Source: an uncultured Bacteroidota bacterium (GTDB lineage Bacteria; Bacteroidota; Bacteroidia; Chitinophagales; Chitinophagaceae). Taken from it: a stretch of 64,000 nucleotides of DNA. This document shows, piece after piece, positions 17,580-43,393 of the stretch. A model generated the notes under the pieces. It searched no databases, was not told the origin of the DNA, and saw only the letters and a program-made list of their open reading frames with translations. The first letter of the stretch is position 1. Every line of letters starts with the position of its first letter. The DNA is taken from contig CAIYLW010000056.1 of NCBI GenBank assembly GCA_903927185.1, forward strand, positions 1-64,000, in the 5' to 3' direction. A program made the translations under genes and the position numbers.

Positions 17580-17590
17580 TTTAAAAAAAA

Positions 17591-17618
17591 CCTACTGATA
17601 ATTTCAGTAGGTTTTTTT
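17591..17618 (+). terminator. Intrinsic terminator after the interrupted lipoprotein gene
   Basis: 8-bp stem cctactga / tcagtagg (17591-17598, 17604-17611), 5-nt loop, then seven T. Confidence 0.9.
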
Positions 17619-17788
17619 CTGCCCAATATTGAAAAAAAGATATTTAACATGTTACTTATTTTATATTCGAAAAAATAAAATCCCATTATCTCTGGGGAGT
17701 TAGTACAGGCACTATAATTTTCACAAAAGTTTATAGAAGAAATTATCAACAGATTCTTAGTTGAGGTACCTTCAATTAAACGTTTTTT

Positions 17789-18535: not shown

Positions 18536-18590
18536 TCATTAACAAGGGAATTTTCTCATGTCATTAGGATCAAACAAGAAAACAATTCAG

Positions 18591-19796: not shown

Positions 19797-19845
19797 TGCT
19801 ATTCTTATTGAGTAAATTTCAATAATCTAATGCGCTGCATTTCAT

Positions 19846-20688
19846 CTAATTCAGATTTAATAAAACAGATTTGACATCCTTATACCAGGGTTCCCAGGGT
19901 ATAAAATGTGGTGCATCTTTTAAGATGGTTATATTTACTGACCTTGCATTGACCAGCATTTTCTTGGCATAAAATGCATTACCTACTGGAACAAAACTAT
20001 CCTTATCTCCATGGATGATCCAAACATTACATTTGATATTTGCAAACTGGCTGGCCAGTGTAATTAAATCTTTCTTTAAAAAATAAATTTCAGTATTGCT
20101 GGGTCTAAAAGCACCCGGTAGTAAATATTGAAAAGGTGAATGATAAAAAAAACCTCTCCATTTTTCAGCGGGTTCTTCACTCACATCTACTGCTCCAGCT
20201 AACAAAATCATTCCGGTAAATTTATCGGGATGACTGGCTACTATTTGAACAGCTAATGGACCTCCTAATGAATGACCAATTATATAAATGGGCTTACCAT
20301 TCTTAAACCTATCTATCAATGGACTAATAATTTCATCTTGTTCTTTTAAATTCTTTGCATCTCCAAATTGACTATAACCAAAACCGGGTCGATCAATGGA
20401 TACCATTTGATATTTTCTCAGCAAATCAGAATCTTCCAAATATTGTTTGTAAGCATCCCAACTTCCGGGAGAACCATGTATAAAAAAAAGTGTGGGTAAT
20501 GTATCAATACCAGATACTACATAGTGTAATTTAAAATGATTAATGACTTCAGTTTTAATCTCTAAGCTGAGACCTTTATTAGCGAACTCTTTTTTTGCGT
20601 CGGAATCAGAGATACGCATTTTAAAACAGCTTTGAGTTAAAACTACCCAAAATGTCACTACCATTAAAAATACAAAAGGGATCTTCAT
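19846..20688 (-). CDS. Alpha/beta hydrolase, probable lipoprotein
   Basis: 280 residues. The oxyanion-region motif is FFIHGSPGSWDAY, the nucleophile elbow GHSLGG, the acidic residue is in WIIHGDKDSFVP and the catalytic His in DAPHFIPWEP. The N-terminus is a signal sequence ending in LTQSCFKM, a plausible lipobox. It therefore acts in the envelope on an ester or similar bond that cannot be specified. It lies 62 bp downstream of the ATP-grasp gene on the same strand, so it may be the last member of that operon. Confidence 0.85.
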   Translation of the reverse strand: MKIPFVFLMVVTFWVVLTQSCFKMRISDSDAKKEFANKGLSLEIKTEVINHFKLHYVVSGIDTLPTLFFIHGSPGSWDAYKQYLEDSDLLRKYQMVSIDRPGFGYSQFGDAKNLKEQDEIISPLIDRFKNGKPIYIIGHSLGGPLAVQIVASHPDKFTGMILLAGAVDVSEEPAEKWRGFFYHSPFQYLLPGAFRPSNTEIYFLKKDLITLASQFANIKCNVWIIHGDKDSFVPVGNAFYAKKMLVNARSVNITILKDAPHFIPWEPWYKDVKSVLLNLN

Positions 20689-24029: not shown

Positions 24030-24186
24030 AACATGAATTTATATTTTTTTGATTATTTATTATGTAGACTCCATTCCAATATATTCCTTACAAATACCAG
24101 CCTCTTTAACCTTTTTTTAACCAAGACAGGCTTATTTGAAAACTAATCCAATATTGCATATTTATGTTATTTTAGCTTTTCAAGAT

Positions 24187-24750
24187 ATGAGTAAACTATC
24201 CAATCTCAATCCAGATCTGTGGGTTAATAATTATGCTGATCAATTGTATTCATACACTGTTATGCGTATAAATGATACCGGATTATCAGAAGACATTGTT
24301 CAGGACACTTTCTTAAGCGCCTGGAAAAATAGAGATTCCTTCAAAGGAGAAGCTTCTGAAAAAAATTGGCTATACGCAATTTGTAAAAACAAAATCATCG
24401 ATCACTATCGTAAAGCGTCTCATCAGATTTCAAGTACTTCCGAGTTTGACATATCCGATACTTTTTTTAATGAAGAAGAACATTGGACGGTTGAAGCAGG
24501 CCCAACTGACTGGGGCATTAATGATCAACATAAGATTGAAAAAAAAGAGTTTTATACCATTTTGGAGTTGTGTAAGAACAAATTGCAACAACTGCAGCAG
24601 TCTGTTTTTGTATTAAAATTCATGGAGGGACAAGATTCAGATGCCATTTGTAAGGTCTTAAATATAACTGCGTCTAACTATTGGGTGCTGATGCACAGAG
24701 CGAAATTGCAGTTGAGAAGCTGCTTAACTAAGAATTGGATAAACTCTTGA
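24187..24750 (+). CDS. ECF-type RNA polymerase sigma factor
   Basis: 187 residues from the ATG at 24187; a TTG 51 bp upstream would add residues outside the family. Region 2 is YADQLYSYTVMRINDTG, then EDIVQDTFLSAWKNRDSF and EKNWLYAICKNKIIDHYRK. Region 4 is QQSVFVLKFMEGQDSDAIC followed by NITASNYWVLMHRAKLQLR. It should direct RNA polymerase to a small stress regulon. A small Cys-containing protein that fits an anti-sigma factor follows after 4 bp, and the divergent YHS and DoxX genes are plausible targets. Confidence 0.92.
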   Translation: MSKLSNLNPDLWVNNYADQLYSYTVMRINDTGLSEDIVQDTFLSAWKNRDSFKGEASEKNWLYAICKNKIIDHYRKASHQISSTSEFDISDTFFNEEEHWTVEAGPTDWGINDQHKIEKKEFYTILELCKNKLQQLQQSVFVLKFMEGQDSDAICKVLNITASNYWVLMHRAKLQLRSCLTKNWINS

Positions 24751-29009: not shown

Positions 29010-29282
29010 TTACCCGGCATTTAAGGGATCGATTACTATTTTAATTTCTTCGATTGTGTGAATTGGAAAGTTACCAGAAGCACTATGTGCTCGAATATCT
29101 TCTTCAGATTCAGCGATATGGATACAATAGATCTTATCGTCGGTTACAAAGGATTGTACCCAAGAATATGGTTTGTCCATCCCAGCTATTACGTCTACGG
29201 AAGTCTTTGAAATTGCTTGTACTTCTTCAGGACTCATATTGCCAGCTCCTGGAAGTTTTCTTTCCACTATAAATTTTTTCAT
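29010..29282 (-). CDS. DUF4242 (nickel-binding SCO4226-like) small protein
   Basis: 90 residues, no signal peptide. The family pattern is MKKFIVERKLPGAGNMSPEEVQ, then YSWVQSFVTDDKIYCIHIAESEEDIRAHS and FPIHTIEEIK. The founding structure, SCO4226, binds nickel, but the role of the family is unsettled. It lies 82 bp downstream of the ATPase-LuxR regulator on the same strand; a two-domain secreted relative lies on the other side of that regulator. A perfect 18-bp palindrome sits just before its start codon. Confidence 0.85.
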   Translation of the reverse strand: MKKFIVERKLPGAGNMSPEEVQAISKTSVDVIAGMDKPYSWVQSFVTDDKIYCIHIAESEEDIRAHSASGNFPIHTIEEIKIVIDPLNAG

Positions 29283-29364: not shown

Positions 29365-31980
29365 CTATTTTATAATTCCTAACCGAATGGCTGCTTCTAC
29401 TGCTTTTGCCCTTGAAGGTGTACCCAATTTAAATAAAATAGAAGAAATATGATGGTCGACTGTTTTTGCTGAAATGAAAAGAGTAGCAGCAATTTCTTTA
29501 TTTTGGGTTCCTCCATTTAATAATTGTAAAACTTCCAATTCTCTATTTGTAAGCTCTAAAATATTCGCTTTTGTGCTATCTCTCTTACCTCTTGGAATTT
29601 TCTTTAACCCTGCATGGCGCATTTCCAATTTTAATTTTTGACTTACTACAACTGCATTTAATTGTTGCATAATTATCAAAGCTTCCCTTTTATCTTTTTC
29701 ATCAGATTCAGCCAAAGCCAATGCGTTTTCGAATGGGCGTTCTGCTTTATGCCAATAATTGGCTGCCAATTTGGGTTTCCCTTCTGCTAATAATTTGTAA
29801 GGTGTATAAAGCTCAGACAATTCAATTTTTGATCTTCCACTTTTATTTAGCCAGTAAGCAAATTCGTTATTTAAAATAATATTTGAGGATTGTTTTACCA
29901 ATAAAATTGCCTGTTCAATTTCTGTAATACCTAAAATCTGAGAAGCATTTAGCCACTCATATTCAAAACAAGCAATCATTACAGGCACAATTCTTCGGTA
30001 CTCTTTGGTTATTAAAGCAATTGACAGTACTTCGTTTAGTATTGATGGAACCTCTGGTTTCCCTATTCGCATTTCAATTCTTGCCTTAACTACTAAAGCC
30101 CCAATTTTTACTATAACAGTTTGAAAAGGATTAATCAAAAGGTTATTTGAAATGGTCAAAGCCTCTTCCCAATCACCTATTTCGAGAAGCATGCCTGCTT
30201 TCATGGATAACTTATATTTTGTCCAAGAGTCGAGATCTCTCTCTTCGCAGTAAATTAAACCGGCTTGCAAATACTCTTTGGCCAAGGCATACTCTTTACA
30301 AGAAATGCATGAACTGATGATATTGGTATATGCTCTAGCGGCATGTTCATGCAAAGAGTGCTTCAATGCAATTTCTAAACTTTCTATTAATATTTTTAAT
30401 CCGGTTCTATCATTCATATTAAACTCCCACATAGAACTCCCTACATTATTAAGTGCGTGAGAAAGGATTTCATCATTTTTTATTTTTTTCGCCATTGCAA
30501 TTGCCAGGTTTCCAAATTCAATGCTTTTTTCAAATTCACCAGACAACATTTTTAATTGCGACATATTACTGAATGCCATTGCCTTTACTGAAGAGTCGGG
30601 CGCTGCTTCCAAAAGTTGTATTGCTTGTTGACCGTATTTTTCAGCTTCATCTCTATTTCCTTCGAACCACCATAGCCTTGATAAAAAGCGTAAACAATTA
30701 CTCATTTCACTAATATCAATTTGATTAACCTCTTTTTTTTGTTGTAATAGCCTTAAAACTTTTCCTTGATAAATAATGGCTTCCTTGATTTGGTTGGTTA
30801 AATAACATTCGTAAGTATATGCTTCATAAAACTTCAACAATAAAGATTTGTCTTGTCCGTCGTAATATTCAATAGCCGTAAAATAAAGTTTTGAAGCTTC
30901 TACATGGGCGCCAACAGATGCAGCTTTTTTTGCAGCAATTGGAGCATACTCAACAACCAAATGATATTCATTTGCATTTTTGGCATAGTGTACAATTCTT
31001 TCAATATCATCGGCTTGAATAAAATCGTTCAAAAACAATTCCACTATTTTCTTATTCAGTGCAATTCTCTTAAATGGAGAAAGCGATTCCTCAATGGTGC
31101 GACGATAGAGTTCGTGTTTAAAATAAATTTTACCTGACCTGATTTCAATTATAGTTGCTGTCAGTGAATTTTCTATGGCTAATTGCCAAAGAGGATCTGT
31201 TTTTATAAATCTATTTAACTCCAATCCTTCAGGGATAACTGCTAAAAACTCCCATAATGCTTTTGTCTGAACTTCCTGATGGTGATACACTGAGAGCACA
31301 GAGTCTTTGATATTTTCCGGAATACCAATACTGTAACTAGCGATAATTTCTGTTACATAAAAAGGATTACCTCTTGATATATCATACAAATTCGAAGCAT
31401 TAAACCCTTTTTCAGAAGCCAAAATATTTACTGCTTCACGTGTAAAGGGAGGAAGTTGAAGCCTTGTGAAACTATCAATTGAAAGATCACTTATCAGATT
31501 TTTAAAACCATGAATTGTATTCAAATCATTATTACGGCAGGTGAGTACAAATAAACATTTTAAACGACTAATCCGGCGAGCGAAAAATTTGATGAAGTCG
31601 AGTGTAGCTTCATCAGCCCAATGTATATCTTCAAATACTAAAACTATGGGTTTCTTTAAATCACTTAGTTCCTTTATAAATTTCGTAAACAAAGCTGATC
31701 TGGAAGGTATTGACTCAATATTATCAGCTAAGCCCTCTTTTATCTGCAATGCAATATCATATAATGGGGCAAGAGGCCTTGGTGTAAACAAGGAATCACA
31801 AGCACCCACAAAGCTCATACAATTATCATCCAGTTCTTTTAAAAAAACCTTTACAAGTGAGGTTTTGCCAATTCCAGCTTCTCCCATTATAAAGAAGCAA
31901 TGTCCCTCTCCCTTCTCCATGTTTTTAAAGCCCACCATCAACTGGGAAAGAAAAACATCGCGTTCAATAAGTTGGTTCAT
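29365..31980 (-). CDS. ATPase-LuxR transcriptional regulator (MalT/LAL-like)
   Basis: 871 residues. The N-terminal AAA/STAND-type ATPase has Walker A GEAGIGKTS near residue 35 and Walker B IVLVFEDIHWAD near residue 115. The middle (about 330-760) is made of helical TPR-like repeats. The last 65 residues are a LuxR-type HTH: LTNRELEVLQLLNGGTQNKE followed by AATLFISAKTVDHHISSILFKL. Such proteins bind DNA when a ligand and ATP switch the STAND core. It lies between the small DUF4242 gene (same strand) and the divergent double-DUF4242 gene, which suggests control of both. Confidence 0.92.
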   Translation of the reverse strand: MNQLIERDVFLSQLMVGFKNMEKGEGHCFFIMGEAGIGKTSLVKVFLKELDDNCMSFVGACDSLFTPRPLAPLYDIALQIKEGLADNIESIPSRSALFTKFIKELSDLKKPIVLVFEDIHWADEATLDFIKFFARRISRLKCLFVLTCRNNDLNTIHGFKNLISDLSIDSFTRLQLPPFTREAVNILASEKGFNASNLYDISRGNPFYVTEIIASYSIGIPENIKDSVLSVYHHQEVQTKALWEFLAVIPEGLELNRFIKTDPLWQLAIENSLTATIIEIRSGKIYFKHELYRRTIEESLSPFKRIALNKKIVELFLNDFIQADDIERIVHYAKNANEYHLVVEYAPIAAKKAASVGAHVEASKLYFTAIEYYDGQDKSLLLKFYEAYTYECYLTNQIKEAIIYQGKVLRLLQQKKEVNQIDISEMSNCLRFLSRLWWFEGNRDEAEKYGQQAIQLLEAAPDSSVKAMAFSNMSQLKMLSGEFEKSIEFGNLAIAMAKKIKNDEILSHALNNVGSSMWEFNMNDRTGLKILIESLEIALKHSLHEHAARAYTNIISSCISCKEYALAKEYLQAGLIYCEERDLDSWTKYKLSMKAGMLLEIGDWEEALTISNNLLINPFQTVIVKIGALVVKARIEMRIGKPEVPSILNEVLSIALITKEYRRIVPVMIACFEYEWLNASQILGITEIEQAILLVKQSSNIILNNEFAYWLNKSGRSKIELSELYTPYKLLAEGKPKLAANYWHKAERPFENALALAESDEKDKREALIIMQQLNAVVVSQKLKLEMRHAGLKKIPRGKRDSTKANILELTNRELEVLQLLNGGTQNKEIAATLFISAKTVDHHISSILFKLGTPSRAKAVEAAIRLGIIK

Positions 31981-32084: not shown

Positions 32085-32708
32085 ATGACCATTATGAAAT
32101 GTATCCCAATTTGTGCATTGTTCGCAGTAATAACTGTAAGCTCTTTTGGCCAAAGCCAAGTATCCAAAATCGATGCAGGCAAGAATCTCTACATCGACGT
32201 ACATGATTTAGAACCAGGAAAAGTGAGTTTTCAGGATGTAGCGGGTGCTCATCAGAAAGACCTGGCTGTAGAAGGTAAATACGGAGTGGACTTTATTAAG
32301 TTTTGGGTAGACGAGAATAAAGGAAAAGTATATTGTCTTTCAACAGCCAAGAGTCCGGATTCAGTAATTAGTACCCATCGTGAAGCTCATGGTTTGTTGC
32401 CATCATCTGTGATGAAAGTCGAATCGGGTATAGCTTCATTAACAATTGAAGGGAAGCAATTTTTCTTAGACGTACATGAATTAGGTGCAGGTAATGTAAC
32501 TGCGGAAGCAGTTGCTGGAGCCCATCAAAAGGACCTAGCTGTTCAGGGGAAATATGGTGTTAATTTCATCAATTATTGGGTAGATGTAAAGGATGGCAAA
32601 GTATTTTGTTTATCAGAGGCGCCAGATTCAAATGCAGTAATTCAAACACATAAAGAAGCACATGGACTATTACCTGCTTATGTTTTAACTATCAAGCAAG
32701 GGCAATAA
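32085..32708 (+). CDS. Secreted protein with two DUF4242 domains
   Basis: 207 residues; ATG codons at 32085 and 32094 are possible starts, and the second gives the cleaner signal peptide (MKCIPICALFAVITVSSFG). Two homologous halves follow, about residues 27-112 and 118-205. Each carries a version of DVHxLxxGxV, VAGAHQKDLAV, KYGVxFIxxWVD, GKVxCLS and THxEAHGLLP. The repeated Asp, His and Cys positions suggest metal binding, in line with the nickel-binding member SCO4226. It is expected in the periplasm. It is divergent from the LuxR-type regulator and followed by a strong hairpin. Confidence 0.85.
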   Translation: MTIMKCIPICALFAVITVSSFGQSQVSKIDAGKNLYIDVHDLEPGKVSFQDVAGAHQKDLAVEGKYGVDFIKFWVDENKGKVYCLSTAKSPDSVISTHREAHGLLPSSVMKVESGIASLTIEGKQFFLDVHELGAGNVTAEAVAGAHQKDLAVQGKYGVNFINYWVDVKDGKVFCLSEAPDSNAVIQTHKEAHGLLPAYVLTIKQGQ

Positions 32709-32794: not shown

Positions 32795-34657
32795 TTATTG
32801 TTTCTTAATTACCACAATAGTAATATCATCTGGATTCCGATTTCCTTGCATCCACTCATCCACCGACTTGATTAATACATCTATAATTTCTTGTGCTGAT
32901 AAATGACAAGAGGATTGGATTAAATTTCTTAATCTATCGTAATCATACATTTCGCCCACTAAATTGGGGGCTTCAGGTAACCCATCTGATAATTGCACTA
33001 ATACATCACCATAATCAAATTTTCTATTTTCTAAAACAAAGTTCTCATCTTTTAATCCACCGAGAGGTAAGCCATTGTTCATAAACTCTTCCACCTCTTT
33101 TGTTGCCGCTTTGTATAAATAGATTGGCGGCATGGCGGCAGAACTTAAGAATAATTCGTCTTGTGTAATTTCTACAATATTTAAACTCATTCTTAAAATT
33201 CCTAAGTCAATTCTTTTTATCACTCCATTTAACCTTTGCAATATTTTATGGGGCTTAACAGGATTAATCCCATTTAAGCCTGCCTTTGTAACAGATACCA
33301 TCATACCTGATGCCACACCATGTCCAGTAGCATCACCACAGACACTAAATAAAGAACCATCTGTTTGAGGAAAAAAATCATAGTAATCACCTCCAACTTC
33401 TGTTGAAGAACGTATAAATGTAGCTATGTCTAAATCGGATCTTTGTGGCAACTCTTTTGGAAGCATACTTTGTTGTAAATCACGTGCAGCTGATAGTTCA
33501 TTATTTTTACGATCGTCTTCGATTTTTTTTATCCTATTTTTTTGGATCCGCTTTCCATTAAAATAAATTCCAATTCCAAATATTAAAAGTAAAGCTATGG
33601 TCAATATGAGTTCCTTTTGTTGGGTAGCTTTTTGTTCAGATAACTCGTTAGCCTTGGTCATTTCACCCAAAGCCAAATTCTGCGCTTCATTTGTTTTTGA
33701 AGAATTATATAATTGTTCACTTAGTTGTTGTGATTTTTCTAAATACTTAAAGGCACTATCCTGCATATTTTTTACTTTATACATTTGGTATAAGACTTTA
33801 TAGGCATTGAGTAGCCCTTCTGTAAAAGTAAATTTCTCCGAATAAATAACCACTTGTCTGCCATAATGAATAGCAGAATCAACTTGATGTAATGCAGCAT
33901 AGGTGCTTGTTAAGCCGGAGGAAGCTTCTAAATAATCTTTATATAAAGAACTGATAAATGATAATGGTATGGACAGTTTGTAATTAATTATGGCAGAATC
34001 ATATTTTTTTTGTGCTCTATAAATATCACCTTGTACAACATAAGCTCCACTCCATCTTTTTTCGTAAACTTTTTTATTATAATAGTCCAATACTTGTGTA
34101 TTATAATAGTAAGCGGTATCATACATTTCTAAAATATAATAGACTTTAGGCATTGTAAAATCAAATAACGGAATATATCGCCTAGAAAATGGATTAGAAA
34201 GTATTAAATATTTAAGGCCTAATTCTTTATTTTTCAAATATGAATAACAAAGTGCTAAATCGAAATAAGCATATCTCATCAAACTATCAACAAATTTATT
34301 TTTATTTCCTAATTTTAACGCCTCTACTGCAAAATGTAATCCAAGAGGATAATTGCCTATAGTTTGGCTATAAGTTTGAGAAATACTATTATAAGCCCAA
34401 AATAATGAAAGATTATCCTTACTATCTACAGCGATTTTTTCGACAAGAGAATAATATTTTATTGCTGTATCGCCTTGAGACCACATATATCGCCCACCAA
34501 TATTGAATAAAATATCTATTTTTTTGAGACTCGAAGAAGTAGATGCAACCAATTTTAATGAGTCTTTTAAACTGAAATTTAAGTCAGAATAATATTGGGC
34601 TTTTACACAAGTAATAGCAAGCAACAAAAAGCAAAAGACAAATAAATATTTTTTCAT
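32795..34657 (-). CDS. TPR-sensor SpoIIE-family phosphatase, copy 2
   Basis: 620 residues: signal peptide (about 1-20), TPR-like helical repeats in the periplasm (about 35-320), one membrane segment (LILTIALLLIFGIGIYFNG), a short linker and a PP2C/SpoIIE domain (about 395-618). Metal-site motifs STEVGGDYYDFF, CGDATGHGVASG, SDGLPEAPN and NPDDITIVVIKK are all intact. It should dephosphorylate a STAS-type antagonist protein in response to an external or envelope cue. It is the last gene of a seven-gene operon, 20 bp after its close paralogue, and ends before a hairpin. Confidence 0.92.
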   Translation of the reverse strand: MKKYLFVFCFLLLAITCVKAQYYSDLNFSLKDSLKLVASTSSSLKKIDILFNIGGRYMWSQGDTAIKYYSLVEKIAVDSKDNLSLFWAYNSISQTYSQTIGNYPLGLHFAVEALKLGNKNKFVDSLMRYAYFDLALCYSYLKNKELGLKYLILSNPFSRRYIPLFDFTMPKVYYILEMYDTAYYYNTQVLDYYNKKVYEKRWSGAYVVQGDIYRAQKKYDSAIINYKLSIPLSFISSLYKDYLEASSGLTSTYAALHQVDSAIHYGRQVVIYSEKFTFTEGLLNAYKVLYQMYKVKNMQDSAFKYLEKSQQLSEQLYNSSKTNEAQNLALGEMTKANELSEQKATQQKELILTIALLLIFGIGIYFNGKRIQKNRIKKIEDDRKNNELSAARDLQQSMLPKELPQRSDLDIATFIRSSTEVGGDYYDFFPQTDGSLFSVCGDATGHGVASGMMVSVTKAGLNGINPVKPHKILQRLNGVIKRIDLGILRMSLNIVEITQDELFLSSAAMPPIYLYKAATKEVEEFMNNGLPLGGLKDENFVLENRKFDYGDVLVQLSDGLPEAPNLVGEMYDYDRLRNLIQSSCHLSAQEIIDVLIKSVDEWMQGNRNPDDITIVVIKKQ

Positions 34658-34677
34658 GTACTTCTTTTATTTTAAAA

Positions 34678-36549
34678 TTATTTTTTCTTTATTACCACAA
34701 TTGTGATATCATCTGGATTATTTTGACCTTGCAACCAATCATCAACTGATTTGATCAGAACATCAATCATTTCCTGGGCAGATAAATGACCAGACTTTTC
34801 AATAATTTGCCTGAGCCTTTCATAATCATACATTTCCCCTACTATATTTGGAGCTTCTGGAAGACCATCAGATAATTGCACTATAAGATCCCCTTGATTA
34901 AAATTTCTTTTAATAATATCAAAACTTTCCTCACGCAAACCACCTAAAGGAAGACCAGGGATTAAAATCTCCTCCACTTTTTTAGTAGCAGCAACATAAT
35001 GGTATATAGGAGGCATGGCTGCTGAACTATACTCAAATTCACCCGGCTTGAACTGCACAATATTCAAACTCATTCTTAGAGTGCCTAAGTCAATGTTCTT
35101 AACAACATTATTTAACTTATGCAAAATAGTATTTACAGGCAATGCATCTATTCCATTTAAACCTGCTTTGGCAACAGATACCATCATTCCAGAAGCCACT
35201 CCATGGCCAGTAGCATCGCCACAAATAGAATATAGAGCAGTTCCTTTATGTTCAAAAAAATCATAATAATCACCACCTACTTCAGTAGATGATCTGATAA
35301 AAGCTGCAATATTTAAATCGGATCTTTGGGGTAATTGTTTAGGGAGCATACTTTGTTGCAAATCACGGGCTGCAGATAGTTCGCTATCTTTACGATCATC
35401 TTCAATTCTTTTGGACTTATTTTTTTGTATGCGCTTTCCATTTAAATAAATACCAATTCCAATTAACAGTAATAAAATAATGGAAAATATGAGTTCCTTT
35501 TGTTGGGTTGCTTTTTGTTCAGATATTTCCTTCGACTTAGTAACTTCACCCAAGGCTAGATTTTGAGCTTCATTTATTTTTGAGGCACTATACAACTGTT
35601 CGCTTAACTGTTGTGACTTTTCTAAATATTTAAAGGCGCTATCTTGATTATTTTTAATTTTATACATTTGGTATAAAACCTTATAGGCGTTTAATAGGCC
35701 TTCTGTAAAAGTAAATTTGTCCGAATAAAAGATAACTTGTCTACCATAATAAATGGCAGAATCTACTTGATGTAAAGCTGCATAGGAACTGGTTAAACCG
35801 GATGCTGCTTCTAAATAATCCTTATATAAAGAGCTGATAAATGATAATGGTATGGAGAGTTTATAATTAATAATGGCAGAATCATATTTTTTTAGTGCCC
35901 GATAAATATCACCGCGAACAACATATACTCCGCTCCATCTCTTTTCGTAAACTCTTTTATTAAAATAGTCCAATACTTGAGTATTATAATAATAAGCTGT
36001 ATCATACATTTCTAAAATATAATATACTTTAGGCATTGTATAACCATCAAACGGAATATGTCTTGTAGGATATGGATTTGAGAGTATTAAATATTTAAGG
36101 CCTAATTCTTTATTTTGTAAAAAGGCATAACAAAGTGCTAAATCGAAATAAGCATATCTCATCAAACTATCAACAACATTTATTTTAATACCTAATTTCA
36201 GTTCTTCAATCGCATAATGTAAGCCAAGTGGATAATTGCCGATGGTGCCACTATAAGTTTCTGAAATATTACTATAGACCCTAAGTAATAAAATATTTTC
36301 TTTTGTATCTATTGCAATTCTTTCGGCAGCAATAAAATATTTTATAGCTGTATCTCCATTAGAATACATATAACGGGATCCTATGTTTAATAATATATAT
36401 ATTTTTTGAGAATTAGAGTTTGTGGTTGCAACTAAATTTAATGAGTCTTTTAAACTGAAATTTAAATCAGAATAAAGTTGGGCTTTTAAAGAAGTACCTA
36501 CTAGCATAAAGAAACTAAAAACAAATAGATATTTTTTCATAGCATTCAT
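34678..36549 (-). CDS. TPR-sensor SpoIIE-family phosphatase, copy 1
   Basis: 623 residues with the same layout as the neighbouring 620-residue protein and long identical stretches (for example MYDTAYYYNTQVLDY and INYKLSIPLSFISSLYKDYL). The two are a tandem duplication. Comparison of the N-termini favours the ATG at 36540 (MKKYLFVF) over that at 36549. Phosphatase motifs STEVGGDYYDFF, CGDATGHGVASG, SDGLPEAPN and NPDDITIVVIKK are intact. The helical sensor part is less conserved than the catalytic part, as expected if the copies read different signals. It follows the TMEM175-like gene after 7 bp. Confidence 0.92.
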   Translation of the reverse strand: MNAMKKYLFVFSFFMLVGTSLKAQLYSDLNFSLKDSLNLVATTNSNSQKIYILLNIGSRYMYSNGDTAIKYFIAAERIAIDTKENILLLRVYSNISETYSGTIGNYPLGLHYAIEELKLGIKINVVDSLMRYAYFDLALCYAFLQNKELGLKYLILSNPYPTRHIPFDGYTMPKVYYILEMYDTAYYYNTQVLDYFNKRVYEKRWSGVYVVRGDIYRALKKYDSAIINYKLSIPLSFISSLYKDYLEAASGLTSSYAALHQVDSAIYYGRQVIFYSDKFTFTEGLLNAYKVLYQMYKIKNNQDSAFKYLEKSQQLSEQLYSASKINEAQNLALGEVTKSKEISEQKATQQKELIFSIILLLLIGIGIYLNGKRIQKNKSKRIEDDRKDSELSAARDLQQSMLPKQLPQRSDLNIAAFIRSSTEVGGDYYDFFEHKGTALYSICGDATGHGVASGMMVSVAKAGLNGIDALPVNTILHKLNNVVKNIDLGTLRMSLNIVQFKPGEFEYSSAAMPPIYHYVAATKKVEEILIPGLPLGGLREESFDIIKRNFNQGDLIVQLSDGLPEAPNIVGEMYDYERLRQIIEKSGHLSAQEMIDVLIKSVDDWLQGQNNPDDITIVVIKKK

Positions 36550-36556
36550 TTAGAAT

Positions 36557-37225
36557 TTAATTAGTTAGGATTTCATTTGCAACTGCACGCCTTCTTAGTC
36601 CAACCATTCCATATTTTAATACCCATGGAATTAATAAGGGCATCAGTCTGCCGATAGTAGGATTAATAAATACTATCCCTAAAGAAATAAGAAAGATGAC
36701 GGGTACGACCAATGTAAAATAGAAACCAAGTAAGATCCGTTCTTTAGAGATTTTATGTGTAAATAAATCTAAATGTTGATTAGTTAAATAAAACCATAAA
36801 ATAGCGTTCATGGTTGCGGTTAAACAAATATTAATTACATAAACCGCATAAGGTAAATGGAGTTGACTTTCTGATGCGTATTCGCCCAATAAGCCAGAAG
36901 TAAATGGTAAAAGAACTACAGAAAAAAGAAATAATAAATTCAACCACAATAAACGAGAAGTATATCTTTCTACATAGCCAAAAATTCGATGATGTACCGA
37001 CCAATAATAACCAACAATACAAAAGCTAATACTAAACCCTAACATTTTCCAAGCCATGCCTTTCAAAGATTCCCATAATGCCTGATCTGTAGCATGATCA
37101 ATAACGGGTACTTTAAATTCAATGACCATTAAAGTAATAGCAATGGCAAAAACACCATCAGTAAAAAATGAAATACGATCTAATTGAAAATTAAGTTTAT
37201 TAGGACTATGTCCTGCTTCTGACAT
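36557..37225 (-). CDS. TMEM175-family potassium channel-like protein
   Basis: 222 residues with six hydrophobic segments. The TM1 signature RxxxF(S/T)D is visible as RISFFTDGVFAIAITLMVIE. Bacterial TMEM175 proteins form tetrameric K+-permeable channels; conduction here is inferred from the family. The Ser of the usual FSD is Thr. Its ATG overlaps the stop of the cyclase gene by one base (TAATG), so the two are translationally coupled within the partner-switching operon. Confidence 0.85.
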   Translation of the reverse strand: MSEAGHSPNKLNFQLDRISFFTDGVFAIAITLMVIEFKVPVIDHATDQALWESLKGMAWKMLGFSISFCIVGYYWSVHHRIFGYVERYTSRLLWLNLLFLFSVVLLPFTSGLLGEYASESQLHLPYAVYVINICLTATMNAILWFYLTNQHLDLFTHKISKERILLGFYFTLVVPVIFLISLGIVFINPTIGRLMPLLIPWVLKYGMVGLRRRAVANEILTN

Positions 37226-39345
37226 TATGCGTAAGATTTAATTTGTATTTTAATATCATTTAAAACTTCAGCTTTAAATTTATTTCTGCTAGTTCTTGCT
37301 GTTTGGGTAAAATAAACATGTTGAGATAAAAATTGAAATTGAATTTTTAACCAATCAAATTCAGAATACTCCTTTTTTAGTTTTAATTCTTGCAAAAGCA
37401 ACAGACTATTTTCGGAATATGTTTCTGTTCCTAAATAATCTAAATCGGCATCACAAATAATTTGTTCTAAAGTATTGGTAGGGGTTTGGGGAATTTTAGT
37501 TGCTAAAATCATTCCCGTAATTGTATTAATTTTTCCAATTGGAAAATCCATGGCTTTTAACACAGCCGAAGCATATTCCGCTCCTCTGCCTTCATGCCGA
37601 GAAGGTTCCCATATATAACCAACATCATGCAGCCAGGCAGCTAACATTAAATCAGCTATATCTTCTTTATCTATTTTTTCATTTTTTGCAATTCTTTCCG
37701 ATTGAATAACCACATCCCGAATATGATCAATGGTATGGTAAGTGTAATCTTTAGGCAAATGATTTATTAAGAAATTTTCAAGAATTTTATAAGCCACTTC
37801 GTAATTAAAGTCAGGTCGCTGATGTAGAATTTCTTTTATTTCGATTGGTTGAGTTTTCCCTTTTACTTTTACAGGTTGTAATTCCCTACATTTAAACCTG
37901 TTACACTCTTTTACCTGAGCCCAAACCGATTCAGAAATAATAATTTCATCTTCTTTGGCATGTGAACATAACCTAGAAGCCAGGTTTACAGAATCCCCTA
38001 TAACAGTATAGTTCATTTGCTGGCGAGATCCAATATTGCCACTAATCACCTTACCTCTATTAATACCAATCCCTATCTTTATAGGAGGCTTGGAATGAAC
38101 TATTCTTTGTAAGTTAAATTCAATTAATTTTTCTTGCATTTCAATGGCAGTTAGCAAGGCATTCTCAGTATCTTTTTCAGTAGAAATGGGAGCACCATAT
38201 ATAACCATTAATTCATCCCCTATAATTTTATCTAAAGTACCATTGTGCTTAAATATAATTTCAATCATTAAGTCAAAATACTCATTAAGTGTCTCCACCA
38301 CTTCTTTTGGTGCCATGGATTCAGACATAGATGTAAACCCTCGAATGTCTGAAAATAAAGTAGTGGCTTCTTGTTCTTGTCCCCCTAAATTTAGCATGGC
38401 TTCGTTTTCTAAAAGCTGATCCACAATTTGTTTAGATACATACTTTTTAAAGGTTGATTTTAATTTATCCAAATTAGATAAATCTTCCATGGCTATTACA
38501 GAACCAATTGCTTCGCTATTATCGTTTAATAAGGGTGAAACTGATATGTTAACAGAAGTAGACTTACCATTGCAATTAATTTGAATCTGCCTTTCTGAAA
38601 CAGTTTGCAGCTCAAGTTCACTTTTAGAAATCAGTTGATTAACAATTTCATTAGACTCGAATATATATTCATAATGATTAGCTATGATCAATTCTCGTTC
38701 TAAATTGATAATAGATGCTGCTGCTCTATTAACATGATTTATTTCTCCCATTAAATTAGTAGTAAATACACCTGTAACAATAGAATGCATCACATTATCA
38801 TTGTATGTTTTTGCTTCTTTAATATCTTCAATCAACTTGATACTATTATAGGCTATACCAGATTGAGAAGCAATGCAAGCAAGCATATTCATATCTGATT
38901 CATCAAAGGCAGAAATGCCAACTCGAGATTCCTTATCAAATAAAACAATCAACCCAGCTAAATTTTTCTTATTTAATAATGGGGCAATTAAACCATGAGT
39001 ACAATTTGTTTTCGACAAAAATGGATCGGCAGTAATATCAATAAGTATGGCTTTTCTATTTTGATATACTTCATTAAAGAAGCCTCTTTTTTTATTGAAA
39101 ATGATACCCTTTAATGCTTTAGCATCAATATTAAACTCAGCCTCTATTTGAAATAAATCAGAATTATTATCCTGCATTAAAATCAAACCAGAAGATGCAT
39201 TAAGTATAGCACAGGATTTAATTAAAATCTCTTGAAGTAAAATTGAAACATTATCAAATGAGCTTAGCTCATTTGTAATGTCCAATAAAGTTTCTAATTC
39301 AAGATACTTTAATTGTGAATTTTTTAAATTATAATGTTTATTCAT
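37225..39345 (-). CDS. GAF-PAS-class III nucleotidyl cyclase-HD protein
   Basis: 706 residues in four parts. A GAF domain (about 15-170) is followed by a PAS domain (about 185-300; GVFTTNLMGEINHVNRAAA). The class III cyclase domain (about 320-500) has metal Asp in FSDIRGFTSM and in IGDELMVIYG, purine-binding Lys in LDKIIGD, and DSVNLASRL with the transition-state Asn and Arg. The C-terminal HD domain (about 535-700) has His in HTIDHIRDV, HD in AAWLHDVGY and Asp in ICDADLDYLG. The cyclase looks active and probably makes cAMP. The HD domain could be a phosphohydrolase. No signal peptide; cytoplasmic. It overlaps both neighbours by one base. Confidence 0.9.
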   Translation of the reverse strand: MNKHYNLKNSQLKYLELETLLDITNELSSFDNVSILLQEILIKSCAILNASSGLILMQDNNSDLFQIEAEFNIDAKALKGIIFNKKRGFFNEVYQNRKAILIDITADPFLSKTNCTHGLIAPLLNKKNLAGLIVLFDKESRVGISAFDESDMNMLACIASQSGIAYNSIKLIEDIKEAKTYNDNVMHSIVTGVFTTNLMGEINHVNRAAASIINLERELIIANHYEYIFESNEIVNQLISKSELELQTVSERQIQINCNGKSTSVNISVSPLLNDNSEAIGSVIAMEDLSNLDKLKSTFKKYVSKQIVDQLLENEAMLNLGGQEQEATTLFSDIRGFTSMSESMAPKEVVETLNEYFDLMIEIIFKHNGTLDKIIGDELMVIYGAPISTEKDTENALLTAIEMQEKLIEFNLQRIVHSKPPIKIGIGINRGKVISGNIGSRQQMNYTVIGDSVNLASRLCSHAKEDEIIISESVWAQVKECNRFKCRELQPVKVKGKTQPIEIKEILHQRPDFNYEVAYKILENFLINHLPKDYTYHTIDHIRDVVIQSERIAKNEKIDKEDIADLMLAAWLHDVGYIWEPSRHEGRGAEYASAVLKAMDFPIGKINTITGMILATKIPQTPTNTLEQIICDADLDYLGTETYSENSLLLLQELKLKKEYSEFDWLKIQFQFLSQHVYFTQTARTSRNKFKAEVLNDIKIQIKSYA

Positions 39346-39686
39346 TATAAATTACTCAATGCTTCTTCTTCCGAGTTAAATACAGTTGAATATTTTGTAA
39401 GTCCCATTATATTAAATGTTTTAGAAACAATGGGAGCTAAATTATAGTATCCAATTTTACCAGTAACTTCTTGAAGCTTTTCAATAATTTCAATTATAAT
39501 TGAAACGCCAATACTATTTACCACTTTAGTGCCGGCCATATTTATTAAAAATTTCTTTTGTCCTAATTTCATTTTTTCATAACAAATAGCTGATATTGCT
39601 TCTCCACCTTCGTTGTTTAAATAACCATCAGTTTCGATAATAACAATTTGATTTGCTTCTTTGGTACTTTTTATAAATGTATTCAT
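39345..39686 (-). CDS. STAS-domain anti-sigma-factor antagonist
   Basis: 113 residues of the SpoIIAA/RsbV type. The phosphorylation site is Ser58 in KVVNSIGVSIIIEI, after the strand KKFLINMAG. In partner switching this serine is phosphorylated by the RsbW-like kinase and dephosphorylated by SpoIIE-type phosphatases; both are encoded in the same operon. It lies 11 bp after the kinase and shares one base with the next gene (TAATG). Confidence 0.92.
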   Translation of the reverse strand: MNTFIKSTKEANQIVIIETDGYLNNEGGEAISAICYEKMKLGQKKFLINMAGTKVVNSIGVSIIIEIIEKLQEVTGKIGYYNLAPIVSKTFNIMGLTKYSTVFNSEEEALSNL

Positions 39687-39697
39687 GTCTTTATTTA

Positions 39698-40114
39698 TTA
39701 TTGTTTGATATTTTTTTTCATTGTAACGGTGGTACCATCGCTATTAGATTCAAATTCGACTGAATCCATCAACTCTTGAATTAAGTGCAATCCCCATCCT
39801 CGCTTACGTTCATCTTTTCCAATTTTATTTTCAATTTTTGGAATTTCCACTTTTGTTTTATCAAAGCCAAGACCCTGATCAATTACTTTTATAATCAAAG
39901 AATCGTCTTCGATTAAGAAATTAATAAAAACATTATTATCTGCTTTTGAATGTTCAAAAGCATTGATACATGCTTCGATAAGCGCCATACTAATTTCTGC
40001 ACTTTGATCTTCGGTAAGATTCATATGCCTGGCGATTACTTCTGCTGTTTGAGTTGCAATTAATTCCATATTGGGAATAATTGGCAGCCTAAGTTCAACT
40101 GTGGGTTTTTTCAT
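39698..40114 (-). CDS. RsbW/SpoIIAB-like serine kinase (anti-sigma type)
   Basis: 138 residues with a GHKL ATPase fold. The N box is ALIEACINAFEHSK (Glu47, Asn51), the G1 box VIDQGLGFD, the G2 box RGWGLHLIQELMD, and the closing strand DGTTVTMKK. It should phosphorylate the adjacent STAS protein and bind either that protein or another target. No sigma factor is encoded in the cluster, so the normal binding partner of such a kinase is missing here. It is 36 bp after the propeller phosphatase and 11 bp before the STAS gene. Confidence 0.92.
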   Translation of the reverse strand: MKKPTVELRLPIIPNMELIATQTAEVIARHMNLTEDQSAEISMALIEACINAFEHSKADNNVFINFLIEDDSLIIKVIDQGLGFDKTKVEIPKIENKIGKDERKRGWGLHLIQELMDSVEFESNSDGTTVTMKKNIKQ

Positions 40115-40150
40115 TTATTGAAATTTTGATTTTTGATGTTTTTTTTATTG

Positions 40151-43100
40151 TTAGGTATGTTTGATTATTACTAATGTGATATCATCAGGGTTATGCTTGC
40201 CGGAGAGCCAGGCATCGGCTTCTGACATTAAATTATCAATTACTTCCTGCGCATTATAGTTACCATAATTTGAAATGAGATTCTGCATTTTAGCATAATC
40301 AAATAATTCACCCTCTAAATTTGGAGCTTCAGGCAATCCATCAGATAGTATTACTAAAATATCTCCTCTTTGGAACGTGGTGGTAGTTTGATCATATTCT
40401 ACATTATTAGAACTGCCTAATGGAATTCCGGAAAGTTGAATTTCGTCTGTAGTTTGGGTTTGGGCTCTATAGATAAAATAAGGAGGCATTCCCGCTGAAC
40501 TAATTGTTAATTGATTATCCTTGATTAAAGCAATATTTAAACTCATCCTCAATATTCCTAAATCCACTTTTTTAATCACACGATTTAATTCATGTAGCAT
40601 GTCTTTAGGACTCATTTGGGGGAGGCCGATAATACCAGCTTTAGTGATGGAAACTAACATTCCAGAAGGGGTTCCATGCCCAGTAGCATCTCCACATATT
40701 ACATATAATGAACCGTCTAACTGTTCAAAAAAATCGTAATAGTCACCACCTACTTCCGTAGAAGTTCTGAGATAGCCTGCGATGTCTAAGTTTTCAATGT
40801 GCGGTAAAGTTTTAGGCAATAGTCTTTCTTGTAAATCTTTAGCAGCAGCTAGCTCAGAATTTTTACGTTCATTTTCAAGTTTCTTAAACTGTTGTTTTTC
40901 ACGGTACTTTGAAAAAGTATAGATAAAGCTAGCAGTAAATAAAGTATACAATAAATATGCCCACCAGGTTCTCCAAGGTGGTGGCAAAATATGAATAACC
41001 ATTTTTGCACCTTCTTCATTCCATATACCATCAATATTAGCTGCCTTTACCTTAAATGTATAAGTACCCTCGTGCAAATTTGTATAACTCGCAAAACGTC
41101 TTGCACCAACACTTATCCAATTTTTATCATAGCCTTCCATTTTATAGGCATATTTATTATGCATCGCATCTCTGTAATTAAATGCTACATAATCAAATGA
41201 TAAATTATTCTCATCATATTTAATGGTATATTCTTTTGTAGAATTTGCAGATTCAATATAAAGGGTGCTATCCTTTTTGGTCATTTTTTGAATAATAACT
41301 ACAGGCGGCTTAGAATTATCTTTTATAGAGTCTGGAAAAAAATAATTGATCCCTTTTATGCCCCCAAAAAACAATTCTCCAGAAGCAGCCTGGTAGTAGG
41401 AATGTTGATTGAATTCAAAGTCTTGAATTCCTTCCGATGTGCCAAAACTTCTGAACTTATTAGTATTAGGATTATATCGGATTAGACTAAAATTGGATGA
41501 AATCCATAGGTTTTTGTCATTCCCCAATAACATATCGTATAAGTCAAGATTAGGAATACCATCCGATTTTGTTAGAAATGTTTTTGTATTTTTTTCTAAA
41601 TCAAGTTTCATAAGTCCATTCCCATAAGTAGCAATAAATATGAGTTTGTCGTCAACTACTGCAAAAGATATGTCTCTAGAATCATCAATTGCATAATAGT
41701 TTTTAATATATTTTGTCAAACATGTAACGCGGTTATTTTTTTCATCCCATACAAATACCCCTTCATCATTTTGAATATATAGTTCAAATTTTGATTTTCT
41801 GTATACGCCAAAAATTCCTTTTGACAATTCTTTCGGCATCTTTAAAATAAGAAAGGATTGTTTACCATTTGAATCTGATATAATAACAGGCTTCTCACCC
41901 GCTAATACCAATTGGTGATTATAAGTTAAAAAAGTATTCCAATTGCCAAACCCAGAAAAGTTTGGCGCAATTTTTTTTATAAGCCCTAAGGCGTCAAAAT
42001 TATTATTCCCCGCTTTTTTTAAATGTATTTCTGCCCCATCAGGTGTATTATTAATTGTAAAGATATTCCCATATGCATCTTCAGAAAATGACCATCTTCT
42101 TAAATAATTTAATTTTTCATTTTGCAAATATTTTTTCTTTGTGTTATTTAAACGGTCTATTTCATAAATACCTCCATGTGGCTCATCTTGCCCTACCCAA
42201 ATATGGTTTTTGCTATCTAAAAAAACACCCCATGTCATTGAAAAGCCTAAATTAAAATCACCAGGGAAATCTTTTTTATACACTCCAAATTTTCTTTTGC
42301 CCGGATCATATTTCGTAACACCTCCAGAATGATTCCCACTTAGCCAAATATTATTATCCTTGTCTTCAATAATCGAAGTATAATCACTTTGAGTTATGCC
42401 ATATTGCTTAGAAACTTGATTATTTATATGTATTATTTTTAAATTTTTTAAATTAATGATATCAATACCTTGATTAAGAAATGTTAGCCATAAATAATCA
42501 CTGGATTTACTATGATAGACGCTATTTATTGCATTGGAACTTATTGATTCTACAACCCCTTTTTTATTTGTGAATATAAAATGACTGTTTTTGGTAAGAT
42601 CATATATGAAAGCTCCATACTTTGTGGCTACATACAATTTGTCTCCTTCTAATTGAAAATCATTTGGTTGAGTAATGAAAATAGAATCCTTTAAATTAAA
42701 TATTTTAGAAAATCTTTTAGATGCAGTATCGAAATATTGAAGACCTACATCTGTTGCAACTATCAATTTGTTGTGAAAATATTTTATTTGGGTTATTAAT
42801 TCATTATAACCATATTTAATAGAATCTTGAGGGTGAACTAAATATTGTTTGAATTGTTTTTTTGTTATATCAAATTCCAACAAACCAATACCCCAGGTAG
42901 CCATCCAAATTTTTTCTTTTTTATTATCGATTTGCATCTTAGCAATTACTCCCAAATAAATGGGCAATTTTTTATTTGTATTTCTAATAGAGTCTCTAAT
43001 AGGATTTCTATAATTCTCCCAAACATCCTTAGACCTATTTAAAAAACTTAAGCCACCATTTGCATCTGAAGTCCATAAATTACTATTATCATCTTCTCTA

Positions 43101-43393
43101 ATTTCTTGAATCCAACCATTTGAACGCGATTGGTTATTTTTAATATCATGATTATATTGCTTAAATTCATAGCCATCAAATCTATTGAGTCCAGATTCGG
43201 TTCCAACCCATATATAGCCTAATTTATCTTGATAAATGACTCTAGATGAACTTTGAGATAATCCATCTTTTACAGAATAAGATTCAAAAATAAAATCAGA
43301 TAATCTTTGAGCTTGCACATAACTAATTAAACTTATACAAATCAAAAATGTAATAACCGCTTCTTTTAATAATCGTATTTTATTTAAATTCAT
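40151..43393 (-). CDS. Propeller-sensor SpoIIE-family phosphatase
   Basis: 1080 residues. Signal peptide (about 1-28), then two-component-regulator-type propeller repeats over about 650 residues (GLSQSSSRVIYQDKLGYIWVG, WLSGNHSGGVTKYDPGKRKF). A Y_Y_Y-type domain (YDENNLSFDYVAFNYRDAMH, GTYTFKVKAANIDGIWNE), one membrane segment (WWAYLLYTLFTASFIYTF) and a cytoplasmic PP2C domain complete it (STEVGGDYYDFF, CGDATGHGTPSG, SDGLPEAPN, NPDDITLVIIK). The periplasmic half is that of hybrid two-component sensors for polysaccharides, but the output is a phosphatase in place of a histidine kinase. It is the first gene of the operon and is preceded by a direct repeat. Confidence 0.93.
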   Translation of the reverse strand: MNLNKIRLLKEAVITFLICISLISYVQAQRLSDFIFESYSVKDGLSQSSSRVIYQDKLGYIWVGTESGLNRFDGYEFKQYNHDIKNNQSRSNGWIQEIREDDNSNLWTSDANGGLSFLNRSKDVWENYRNPIRDSIRNTNKKLPIYLGVIAKMQIDNKKEKIWMATWGIGLLEFDITKKQFKQYLVHPQDSIKYGYNELITQIKYFHNKLIVATDVGLQYFDTASKRFSKIFNLKDSIFITQPNDFQLEGDKLYVATKYGAFIYDLTKNSHFIFTNKKGVVESISSNAINSVYHSKSSDYLWLTFLNQGIDIINLKNLKIIHINNQVSKQYGITQSDYTSIIEDKDNNIWLSGNHSGGVTKYDPGKRKFGVYKKDFPGDFNLGFSMTWGVFLDSKNHIWVGQDEPHGGIYEIDRLNNTKKKYLQNEKLNYLRRWSFSEDAYGNIFTINNTPDGAEIHLKKAGNNNFDALGLIKKIAPNFSGFGNWNTFLTYNHQLVLAGEKPVIISDSNGKQSFLILKMPKELSKGIFGVYRKSKFELYIQNDEGVFVWDEKNNRVTCLTKYIKNYYAIDDSRDISFAVVDDKLIFIATYGNGLMKLDLEKNTKTFLTKSDGIPNLDLYDMLLGNDKNLWISSNFSLIRYNPNTNKFRSFGTSEGIQDFEFNQHSYYQAASGELFFGGIKGINYFFPDSIKDNSKPPVVIIQKMTKKDSTLYIESANSTKEYTIKYDENNLSFDYVAFNYRDAMHNKYAYKMEGYDKNWISVGARRFASYTNLHEGTYTFKVKAANIDGIWNEEGAKMVIHILPPPWRTWWAYLLYTLFTASFIYTFSKYREKQQFKKLENERKNSELAAAKDLQERLLPKTLPHIENLDIAGYLRTSTEVGGDYYDFFEQLDGSLYVICGDATGHGTPSGMLVSITKAGIIGLPQMSPKDMLHELNRVIKKVDLGILRMSLNIALIKDNQLTISSAGMPPYFIYRAQTQTTDEIQLSGIPLGSSNNVEYDQTTTTFQRGDILVILSDGLPEAPNLEGELFDYAKMQNLISNYGNYNAQEVIDNLMSEADAWLSGKHNPDDITLVIIKHT

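Follow-up and report, generated by a model that had tools for sequence, protein, structure and literature searches.

Organization of the operon

The DNA analysed here, referred to as the window, is a stretch of 64,000 nucleotides (positions 1 to 64,000 of contig CAIYLW010000056.1, assembly GCA_903927185.1) from an uncultured Bacteroidota bacterium of the family Chitinophagaceae. Its minus strand carries an operon of seven genes that encode three SpoIIE-type phosphatases (PPM1, PPM2 and PPM3), an RsbW-like kinase (KIN), a STAS antagonist, a nucleotide cyclase with an HD domain (CYC) and a TMEM175-like membrane protein (TMEM). In Bacillus, a switch made of phosphatase, kinase and STAS protein is used to release a sigma factor. 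Judged from its parts, i.e., a kinase, a STAS protein and sensor phosphatases with the expected residues, the operon is a partner-switching module, and its output is probably the adenylate cyclase encoded within it, in a manner that would resemble the SiaABCD and BgrUVWR systems.

The seven open reading frames (ORFs) run from position 43393 down to 32795 with successive gaps of 36, 11, -1, -1, 7 and 20 bp, and the start codon of CYC shares one base with the stop codon of STAS in the sequence TAATG. The genes, their strand and the six gap sizes are exactly as described in an earlier reading made from the letters alone (the sequence-only reading), and all the protein families that it assigned are borne out by Pfam. 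The features of the operon are the following:

40151..43393, minus strand: PPM3, a sensor phosphatase with a Reg_prop propeller, Y_Y_Y and a SpoIIE phosphatase domain (Pfam)
39698..40114, minus strand: KIN, an RsbW/SpoIIAB-like GHKL serine kinase of 138 residues
39345..39686, minus strand: STAS, a SpoIIAA/RsbV-like antagonist of 113 residues, with Ser58 as the predicted phospho-acceptor
37225..39345, minus strand: CYC, 706 residues, with GAF, PAS, a transducer stretch, a predicted class IIIb adenylate cyclase domain and HD
38476..39345, minus strand: residues 1-290 of CYC, the GAF-PAS half, co-inherited with KIN and STAS and proposed as the receiver of the switch
37228..37818, minus strand: residues 510-706 of CYC, the HD phosphohydrolase domain, whose fold matches YpgQ-type hydrolases and cyclic-nucleotide phosphodiesterases
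36557..37225, minus strand: TMEM, a TMEM175-like membrane protein of 222 residues (Pfam), accessory
34678..36549, minus strand: PPM2, a TPR-SpoIIE phosphatase, tandem duplicate of PPM1
32795..34657, minus strand: PPM1, a TPR-SpoIIE phosphatase

The gene order in other genomes

A scan of genome contigs with the kinase gave 30 loci, 29 of which are true relatives with 64-100% identity; the remaining one (L044, from Clostridia, 29% identity) is left out of all kinase counts. One of the 29, L015, comes from the species of the window or nearly so (100% identity), and all these records are named as Bacteroidota groups, bar two that are named 'uncultured bacterium' and Comamonas. STAS follows KIN in 28 of the 29 loci and CYC follows STAS in 26, the exceptions to the KIN-STAS-CYC order being L037, L038 and L039. 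No cyclase match at 1e-20 was obtained in the 1.5-Mb record of L037. Each of the other two (L038 and L039, both at 10001-10754) is a KIN-STAS pair that lies behind a propeller phosphatase and lacks a cyclase. They are second copies, as their genomes carry KIN-STAS-CYC-TMEM too (L041 and L040, respectively), and may provide that cyclase with another input. Given that they are second copies, 26 of 27 genomes have KIN-STAS-CYC. The one-base overlap between STAS and CYC was found in 23 of the 28 loci having both genes, and the overlapping TAATG in 22 of the 26 junctions listed, while the gap between KIN and STAS varies from -17 to 34 bp. A search for the same order in other genomes, as suggested along with the sequence-only reading, thus shows that it is conserved, and since it recurs the arrangement is not due to chance.

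Two sets of genomes, 244 from the family (three others of the same genus among them) and 395 from the phylum, both drawn evenly from larger groups, were searched for KIN and CYC; for CYC, the best four candidates per family genome and the best two per genome of the phylum sample were scored. Within the family, a kinase ortholog was found only in the genome of the window (292 bits, the next match having 31); 85 of the 244 genomes matched the kinase at 0.001, all of them besides its own with 31 bits or less, and these were not counted as orthologs. Full-length CYC was likewise found only in its own genome (1547 bits), the next match (233 bits) covering only the cyclase-HD part; the rest of the listed family matches consist of a catalytic domain, an HD domain or a cyclase gene with an HD gene beside it. 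In the phylum sample the kinase profile gave 283.5 bits for its own genome, 212 for G549 and 149 for G244, followed by 20 genomes at 83-102 bits (19 that we call tier II, and G524) and then by generic RsbW-like kinases. Among the CYC-profile matches listed for the 395 genomes, GAF-PAS together with the cyclase domain exceeded 500 bits only in the genome of the window, G549 and G524, and KIN-STAS adjoins CYC in each of the three; the scores of G549 and G524 are not independent, because their rows are in the profile, and the adjacency is. G244 has KIN-STAS without an adjacent CYC, and G328 (312 bits) has a cyclase whose N-terminal half is a different one, with two GAF domains, and the 20 kb read there contain no KIN.

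The tier II loci (L130-L148) are a sister group from other Bacteroidota, in which the kinase carries the motif KRGWG or RRGWG and is accompanied by STAS in 17 of 19 loci (in L137 and L138 the STAS gene was not shown by the ORF caller, and 17 of the 19 are in the tree), by a further phosphatase of about 535 residues and, in most loci, by a propeller phosphatase beside it. In the tree of the catalytic domain, given without node supports, the linked cyclases of tier I and those of G549, L042 and L043 form one clade, and the cyclase of G524 lies on a long branch beside receiver-cyclases. The tree of KIN+STAS groups L149, the locus of G524, with tier II (support 0.99); L031 is marked there as lacking CYC only because its contig ends inside that gene. 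A single origin of the link to the cyclase was considered and is not established, as G524 is placed apart in both trees, which fits one or two origins. Plasmid and phage origins were also considered and set aside, with no DNA match of KIN-STAS in the plasmid set and no match of KIN in the phage set.

Sensor phosphatases, kinase and antagonist

The SpoIIE domain scores 104-109 bits in all three phosphatases (Pfam cut-off 25), and the stretches GGDYYDF, GDATGHG, LSDGLPEA and NPDDIT, which we take to hold metal ligands, are kept in each of them. In PPM3 a membrane stretch, apparent by eye only, lies between the propeller/Y_Y_Y part and the phosphatase domain. PPM1 and PPM2 are tandem duplicates that are 76% identical; therefore, of the three-input switch that had been proposed for this operon, the three phosphatases stand, and the inputs may be of two signal kinds and not three. 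A phosphatase gene on the same strand lies directly upstream of KIN, at a distance of 8-72 bp, in 22 of the 29 loci, and in addition in L037, as a fragment at the contig end. In L026, L028 and L030 alike, the core is followed by three full TPR-phosphatases of the PPM1 kind; in L026 they belong to a tandem run of four (13595-20403), the last one cut by the locus end, an expansion of the inputs.

KIN matches HATPase_c_2 with 85 bits, and its relatives in the PDB are RsbW (6m36, E 5e-12) and the SpoIIAB structures (about 1e-7). Its catalytic Glu47 and N-box Asn51 align with those of SpoIIAB and RsbW and are present in every aligned sequence. The antagonist matches Pfam STAS (PF01740) with 33.5 bits and has SpoIIAA chains as its best PDB matches; Ser58 is aligned to residue 58 of SpoIIAA (Ala in the SpoIIAA chain of 1tid) and is invariant in 28 of 28 STAS sequences. 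The genome (3.24 Mb in 111 contigs, 94% complete) holds three SpoIIE-domain proteins, all of them within the operon, and KIN is its sole HATPase_c_2 (PF13581) protein over the cut-off. Three STAS proteins exceed the cut-off, i.e., the one in the operon and the C63 and C39 proteins; as alternative partners the latter two were rejected, the C63 paralog having EDAA at the place of the acceptor Ser (by eye) and the C39 paralog being a transporter protein of SulP size, judged from its sequence. With all SpoIIE proteins in the operon, one kinase and the other STAS proteins unfit, no complete partner-switch set besides the operon was found in the genome.

In the classical use of these components KIN would be an anti-sigma factor that holds one of the sigma factors of the genome, either the second one of RpoD size or an extracytoplasmic-function (ECF) sigma factor such as that encoded in the window, and the cyclase would merely be co-expressed. 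The best NCBIfam and PDB matches of KIN are indeed RsbW and SpoIIAB, and the genome encodes 17 Sigma70_r2 proteins, including two of RpoD size (285 and 290 residues) and one of ECF size (about 204 residues) that is encoded on the plus strand of the window (24136-24750), at about 8 kb from the 3' end of the operon. The sequence-only reading had stated that no sigma factor is encoded here and that the kinase must therefore act on something else; the first statement holds for the operon, where neither ORFs nor Pfam revealed a sigma factor among the seven genes, and the second does not follow from the gene content, given these 17 proteins, one of them inside the window. On the other hand, the nearest sigma gene is that one in the window, at a distance of about 8 kb and on the opposite strand (the neighbours in the relatives were not scanned singly for sigma genes), and KIN falls under the curated NCBIfam cut-offs (65 of 145 bits for PRK04069, 60 of 155 for TIGR01924 and 54 of 135 for TIGR01925), so that the features of RsbW/SpoIIAB anti-sigma factors looked for, a sigma gene in the operon and a score over those cut-offs, are absent. 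A kinase present in one of 244 family genomes would also be more in keeping with a partner that is local and its own than with a core sigma factor, and the co-inheritance with the input half of the cyclase, described below, points the same way. Thr occupies the position of SpoIIAB Arg20 in 29 of 29 aligned kinases, and in L128 and L129; the Arg common to SpoIIAB and RsbW is known to contact sigma-F. This replacement was rejected as proof against sigma binding, since tier II kinases, whose targets are unassigned, have Leu, Ile or Val at that position, and L149 has His. Considering these data together, a sigma factor is an unlikely target of KIN.

The cyclase and its HD domain

According to Pfam, CYC is formed by GAF, PAS, Guanylate_cyc (PF00211, 112 bits) and HD domains. 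The structural relatives of its catalytic domain are the class IIIb adenylate cyclases CyaB (3r5g) and CyaC (1wc1) and the guanylyl cyclase Cya2 (2w01), with 36-39% identity to CyaB and Cya2 (Foldseek match); CYC has the same catalytic domain as these proteins and differs by its C-terminal HD domain and its linkage to KIN-STAS. Residues D333, K373, D377, T447, N454 and R458 are invariant in the 26 CYC proteins compared, and we take them to be, respectively for each kind, the two metal Asp (D333 and D377), the adenine-specifying Lys, the Thr at the Asp1018 position, and the transition-state Asn and Arg; K373 is aligned with Lys in 6fht and with Glu in 2w01. By its substrate and catalytic residues, CYC is classified as a class III (subclass IIIb) adenylate cyclase, and the direction of the switch toward cyclic AMP (cAMP), suggested earlier as one of its possibilities, agrees with these substrate residues. 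CYC was the sole class III cyclase match at 1e-20 in all ten locus-derived kinase genomes having CYC that were searched.

A structure model of the whole protein (mean predicted local distance difference test (pLDDT) 74, predicted template-modelling (TM) score 0.49) is too weak to define the arrangement of the domains, and its matches to PDE2A and PDE6 were set aside (TM about 0.2). The HD domain is modelled confidently (pLDDT 95), and its candidate metal ligands H28, H64, D65, D123 and D125 are invariant in 18 of 18 sequences. This model matches hydrolases of the YpgQ, Lin1889 and 2pq7 type with Z values of 16.2-17.5, and PDE10A, PDE2A and PDE7A with 15.8-16.8 over 189-195 of its 197 residues; all of these exceed a Z of about 13, under which matches between helical folds may not be meaningful. 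From the fold, it is possible that the HD domain acts as a cAMP phosphodiesterase.

Two Chitinophagaceae genomes that lack the kinase ortholog encode, in this order, a histidine kinase with TPR or propeller, a receiver, a receiver-cyclase and an HD protein (L226:7815-10696 and L227:7567-10439), and the HD domain of L226 is fused to YitT-DUF2179. The output formed by cyclase, HD domain and membrane protein is therefore also found under apparent two-component control. In this family, HD domains and class III cyclases seem to go as a pair, either fused or adjacent.

Co-inheritance of the switch with the input half of the cyclase

Protein distances were compared over 20 loci (L015 among them) with the Mantel test. 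L016, L017 (which holds a masked stretch), L031 and L032 (cut), L037-L039 (no CYC), L129 and L149 were left out, as were L042, L043 and L128, which are too distant; the value for the adjacent phosphatase comes from 15 of the 20 loci (105 pairs) and that for TMEM from 17 (136 pairs). The distances of KIN+STAS follow those of the GAF-PAS half of CYC closely (r=0.96, p 0.001), compared with r=0.44 (p 0.016) for the catalytic domain, 0.48 (p 0.002) for HD, 0.64 (p 0.001) for TMEM and 0.22 (p 0.154) for the adjacent phosphatase domain. When the three distant loci are added (n=23), the values are 0.98 each for GAF and PAS, 0.75 for the cyclase domain and 0.48 for HD. Two blocks can be recognised, one with KIN, STAS, GAF and PAS (0.83-0.93) and the other with cyclase, HD and TMEM (0.80-0.94), with values of 0.40-0.67 between them.

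This split is due to four chimeric loci, the pairs L019/L033 and L035/L036, which carry another catalytic-HD half. When L019 and L033 are compared with L018 and L020, GAF and PAS are 81-90% identical, the catalytic domain 62-67% and HD 45-46%; as a control, L018 and L020 are 91, 90, 92 and 82% identical in GAF, PAS, catalytic domain and HD. At the DNA level, the identity between L019 and L020 is 77-91% up to about 1650 bp from the start of KIN and then falls to 73, 67, 62, 60 and 56%, while in the control pair it is 73-90% throughout; L035 compared with L028 shows the same pattern with a slightly later border. The most likely explanation of these sequences is a recombination near the transducer stretch that exchanged input and output halves between cyclases and left the switch with the input half. 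Since KIN and STAS follow GAF-PAS and not the catalytic-HD half in the chimeras, the border of the block lies inside the CYC gene, and this argues for, and does not prove, a functional unit that would extend from near the kinase to inside the cyclase.

TMEM matches TMEM175 (PF06736) with 96.7 bits (cut-off 25) and comes after CYC in 18 of the 22 loci where the contig reaches, the other four being L035, L036, L042 and L043. In L035 (6555-7430) its slot is occupied by a YitT-DUF2179 membrane protein, directly after the cyclase with a 4-base overlap, and in L036 by a gene known by its length alone, which is the same as in L035. The distances of TMEM correlate at 0.80-0.84 with the catalytic-HD half, versus 0.55 and 0.67 with KIN and STAS. 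Because of the loss or replacement of its slot and this closer correlation with the catalytic-HD half, the channel, which had been put forward as one of two candidate targets of the kinase, is the weaker one. The other, the co-encoded cyclase, is the best candidate output, in view of the conserved KIN-STAS-CYC order and the co-inheritance with the GAF-PAS half.

Several observations weigh against the cyclase as the output. The catalytic and HD parts still correlate with KIN+STAS with the chimeras included, and without these four loci all the parts do (GAF-PAS 0.98, cyclase 0.90, HD 0.86, TMEM 0.79, adjacent phosphatase 0.60), which means that the co-inheritance is in part a matter of linkage. 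No cyclase adjoins KIN-STAS in L038, L039 and L129, and in the 19 tier II loci KIN lies beside the further phosphatase, with no cyclase recognised next to the kinase and no evident output gene; hence, this kinase family can do without a cyclase. The GAF and PAS domains could sense small ligands, for which no protein partner would be needed. There are three class III cyclases in the genome of the window, and G549 and G524 carry further ones; no cNMP-binding (cyclic nucleotide-binding) protein was found in G628 and G629, two KIN-STAS-CYC genomes of 1.3 and 1.7 Mb.

Part of these data would suit a reading in which KIN-STAS and CYC share a stress operon, each acting in parallel on a target of its own, and the co-inheritance reflects physical linkage only: neighbours co-inherit anyway, every gene correlates once the chimeras are dropped, and both tier II and L129 lack an adjacent cyclase. 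Nevertheless, the upstream phosphatase, a neighbour as well, follows the switch weakly, the downstream border of the block falls inside the cyclase gene, near the boundary between GAF-PAS and the catalytic domain, and no full-length CYC without KIN-STAS appeared among the listed matches of the 244 and 395 genomes, bar the weaker match of G328 with its double-GAF protein. We consider such parallel action quite improbable.

Comparison with known partner switches and a possible mechanism

The known targets of partner switches are sigma factors and, in Moorella and a few Proteobacteria, diguanylate cyclases (PMC7647112, PMC8457831). A close likeness is found with SiaABCD from Pseudomonas aeruginosa, where a PP2C phosphatase, a kinase, a STAS-fold antagonist and a nucleotide cyclase are also encoded in one operon, and where SiaC binds and activates SiaD unless it is phosphorylated by SiaB (PMC7647112, PMC8457831). 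It differs in having a diguanylate (GGDEF) cyclase, SiaC as a DUF1987 protein with phospho-Thr68, one phosphatase, and an operon of four genes without an HD domain or a channel gene; DUF1987 and GGDEF are absent from the operon studied here, which by Pfam has PF01740 and PF00211 instead. In BgrUVWR from Sinorhizobium meliloti, the phosphatase/kinase pair BgrU/BgrW and the STAS protein BgrV also control a nucleotide cyclase (cited in PMC7647112 and PMC8457831); however, the target BgrR is a diguanylate cyclase, and the system belongs to the Alphaproteobacteria. HsbR-HsbA-HsbD from P. aeruginosa shares an anti-anti-sigma (STAS) protein that binds a cyclase according to its phosphorylation state, with the difference that phosphorylated HsbA binds the diguanylate cyclase HsbD, unphosphorylated HsbA acts on FlgM, and the input is a phosphorelay (PMC5085249). 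In Moorella, the kinase MtT acts on the diguanylate cyclase MtG (cited in PMC7647112). The RSTX modules of stressosomes are also kinase-STAS modules plugged onto varied outputs, including a diguanylate cyclase in Moorella (PMC9237108, PMC4976288). In contrast with our operon they use RsbT/RsbS/RsbR-type proteins, and the outputs named in section 10 of that account are PP2C phosphatases, cyclic di-GMP and phosphorelays, not cAMP (PMC9237108). RsbU-RsbV-RsbW and SpoIIE-SpoIIAA-SpoIIAB from Bacillus are built from the same three families of proteins, with catalytic and acceptor residues that align with those of our operon, and differ in their sigma-factor output; our operon encodes a cyclase, and its kinase has no Arg at the position of SpoIIAB Arg20.

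From the components, residues, gene order and co-inheritance seen in these sequences, a mechanism can be proposed whose binding steps, sign and signals are conditional. KIN would phosphorylate STAS on Ser58, keeping it inactive or bound. Signals at the propeller or TPR domains would switch on the phosphatases, and phosphorylated STAS would be dephosphorylated; free STAS would then dock on the GAF-PAS/linker part of CYC and turn on cAMP synthesis, as SiaC does on SiaD. Breakdown of cAMP, or of another nucleotide product, may fall to the HD domain, and the catalytic half could have the TMEM175 or YitT protein as its membrane partner. The cAMP would be read by CRP-like proteins, for which the three cNMP-binding proteins of the genome are candidates; cNMP-binding proteins were found in 15 of the 17 kinase genomes searched.

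The messenger could instead be the free kinase, with KIN binding or phosphorylating CYC, as MtT acts on MtG, or else STAS could be active in its phosphorylated form, as HsbA is with HsbD. Both designs have been published for diguanylate cyclases, and the TAATG junction couples STAS to CYC without telling which of the proteins binds. In SiaABCD and BgrUVWR, however, the antagonist is the regulator of the cyclase, and here it is the STAS gene that is directly coupled to CYC, a point that is not decisive. We regard these designs as fairly unlikely, and docking of unphosphorylated STAS on CYC is preferred.

A wider scheme, rather doubtful as a whole, would be a modular cAMP switch with three layers. 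Swappable sensor phosphatases would act on a fixed core of KIN, STAS and GAF-PAS, in which STAS is a dissociable activating subunit, and the output would be a self-limiting pair of cyclase and HD phosphodiesterase, accompanied by a TMEM175 or YitT protein that is gated by the signal or gates it.

If the proposal of a cyclase output is true, the operon would be, as far as the literature searched shows, the first case in which a partner switch controls a class III adenylate cyclase, and would provide an input route for cAMP control in Bacteroidota, on which, to our knowledge, little is known. A cAMP version in Bacteroidota would also show that the core of phosphatase, kinase and STAS protein has become linked to a second-messenger enzyme of a further kind. 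No case of a class III adenylate cyclase as the target of a partner switch was found in the open-licence literature, a weak negative, and the word 'cyclase' is absent from the main text of a review devoted only to STAS (PMC8256260). The chimeric pairs L019/L033 and L035/L036 show at which place an input half can be exchanged from one output half to another, and the docking site is therefore directly testable.

Genes next to the operon

Past the 3' end of the operon, the window contains a large AAA-TPR-LuxR regulator of 871 residues (29365-31980), for which no match was found in the 30 kinase loci, many of them too short to reach its position. Just past that end, on the opposite strand (32085-32708), there is a protein with two SCO4226-like stretches, of the nickel-responsive type, and an ORF of 90 residues at 29010-29282 resembles this SCO4226-like protein by eye only.

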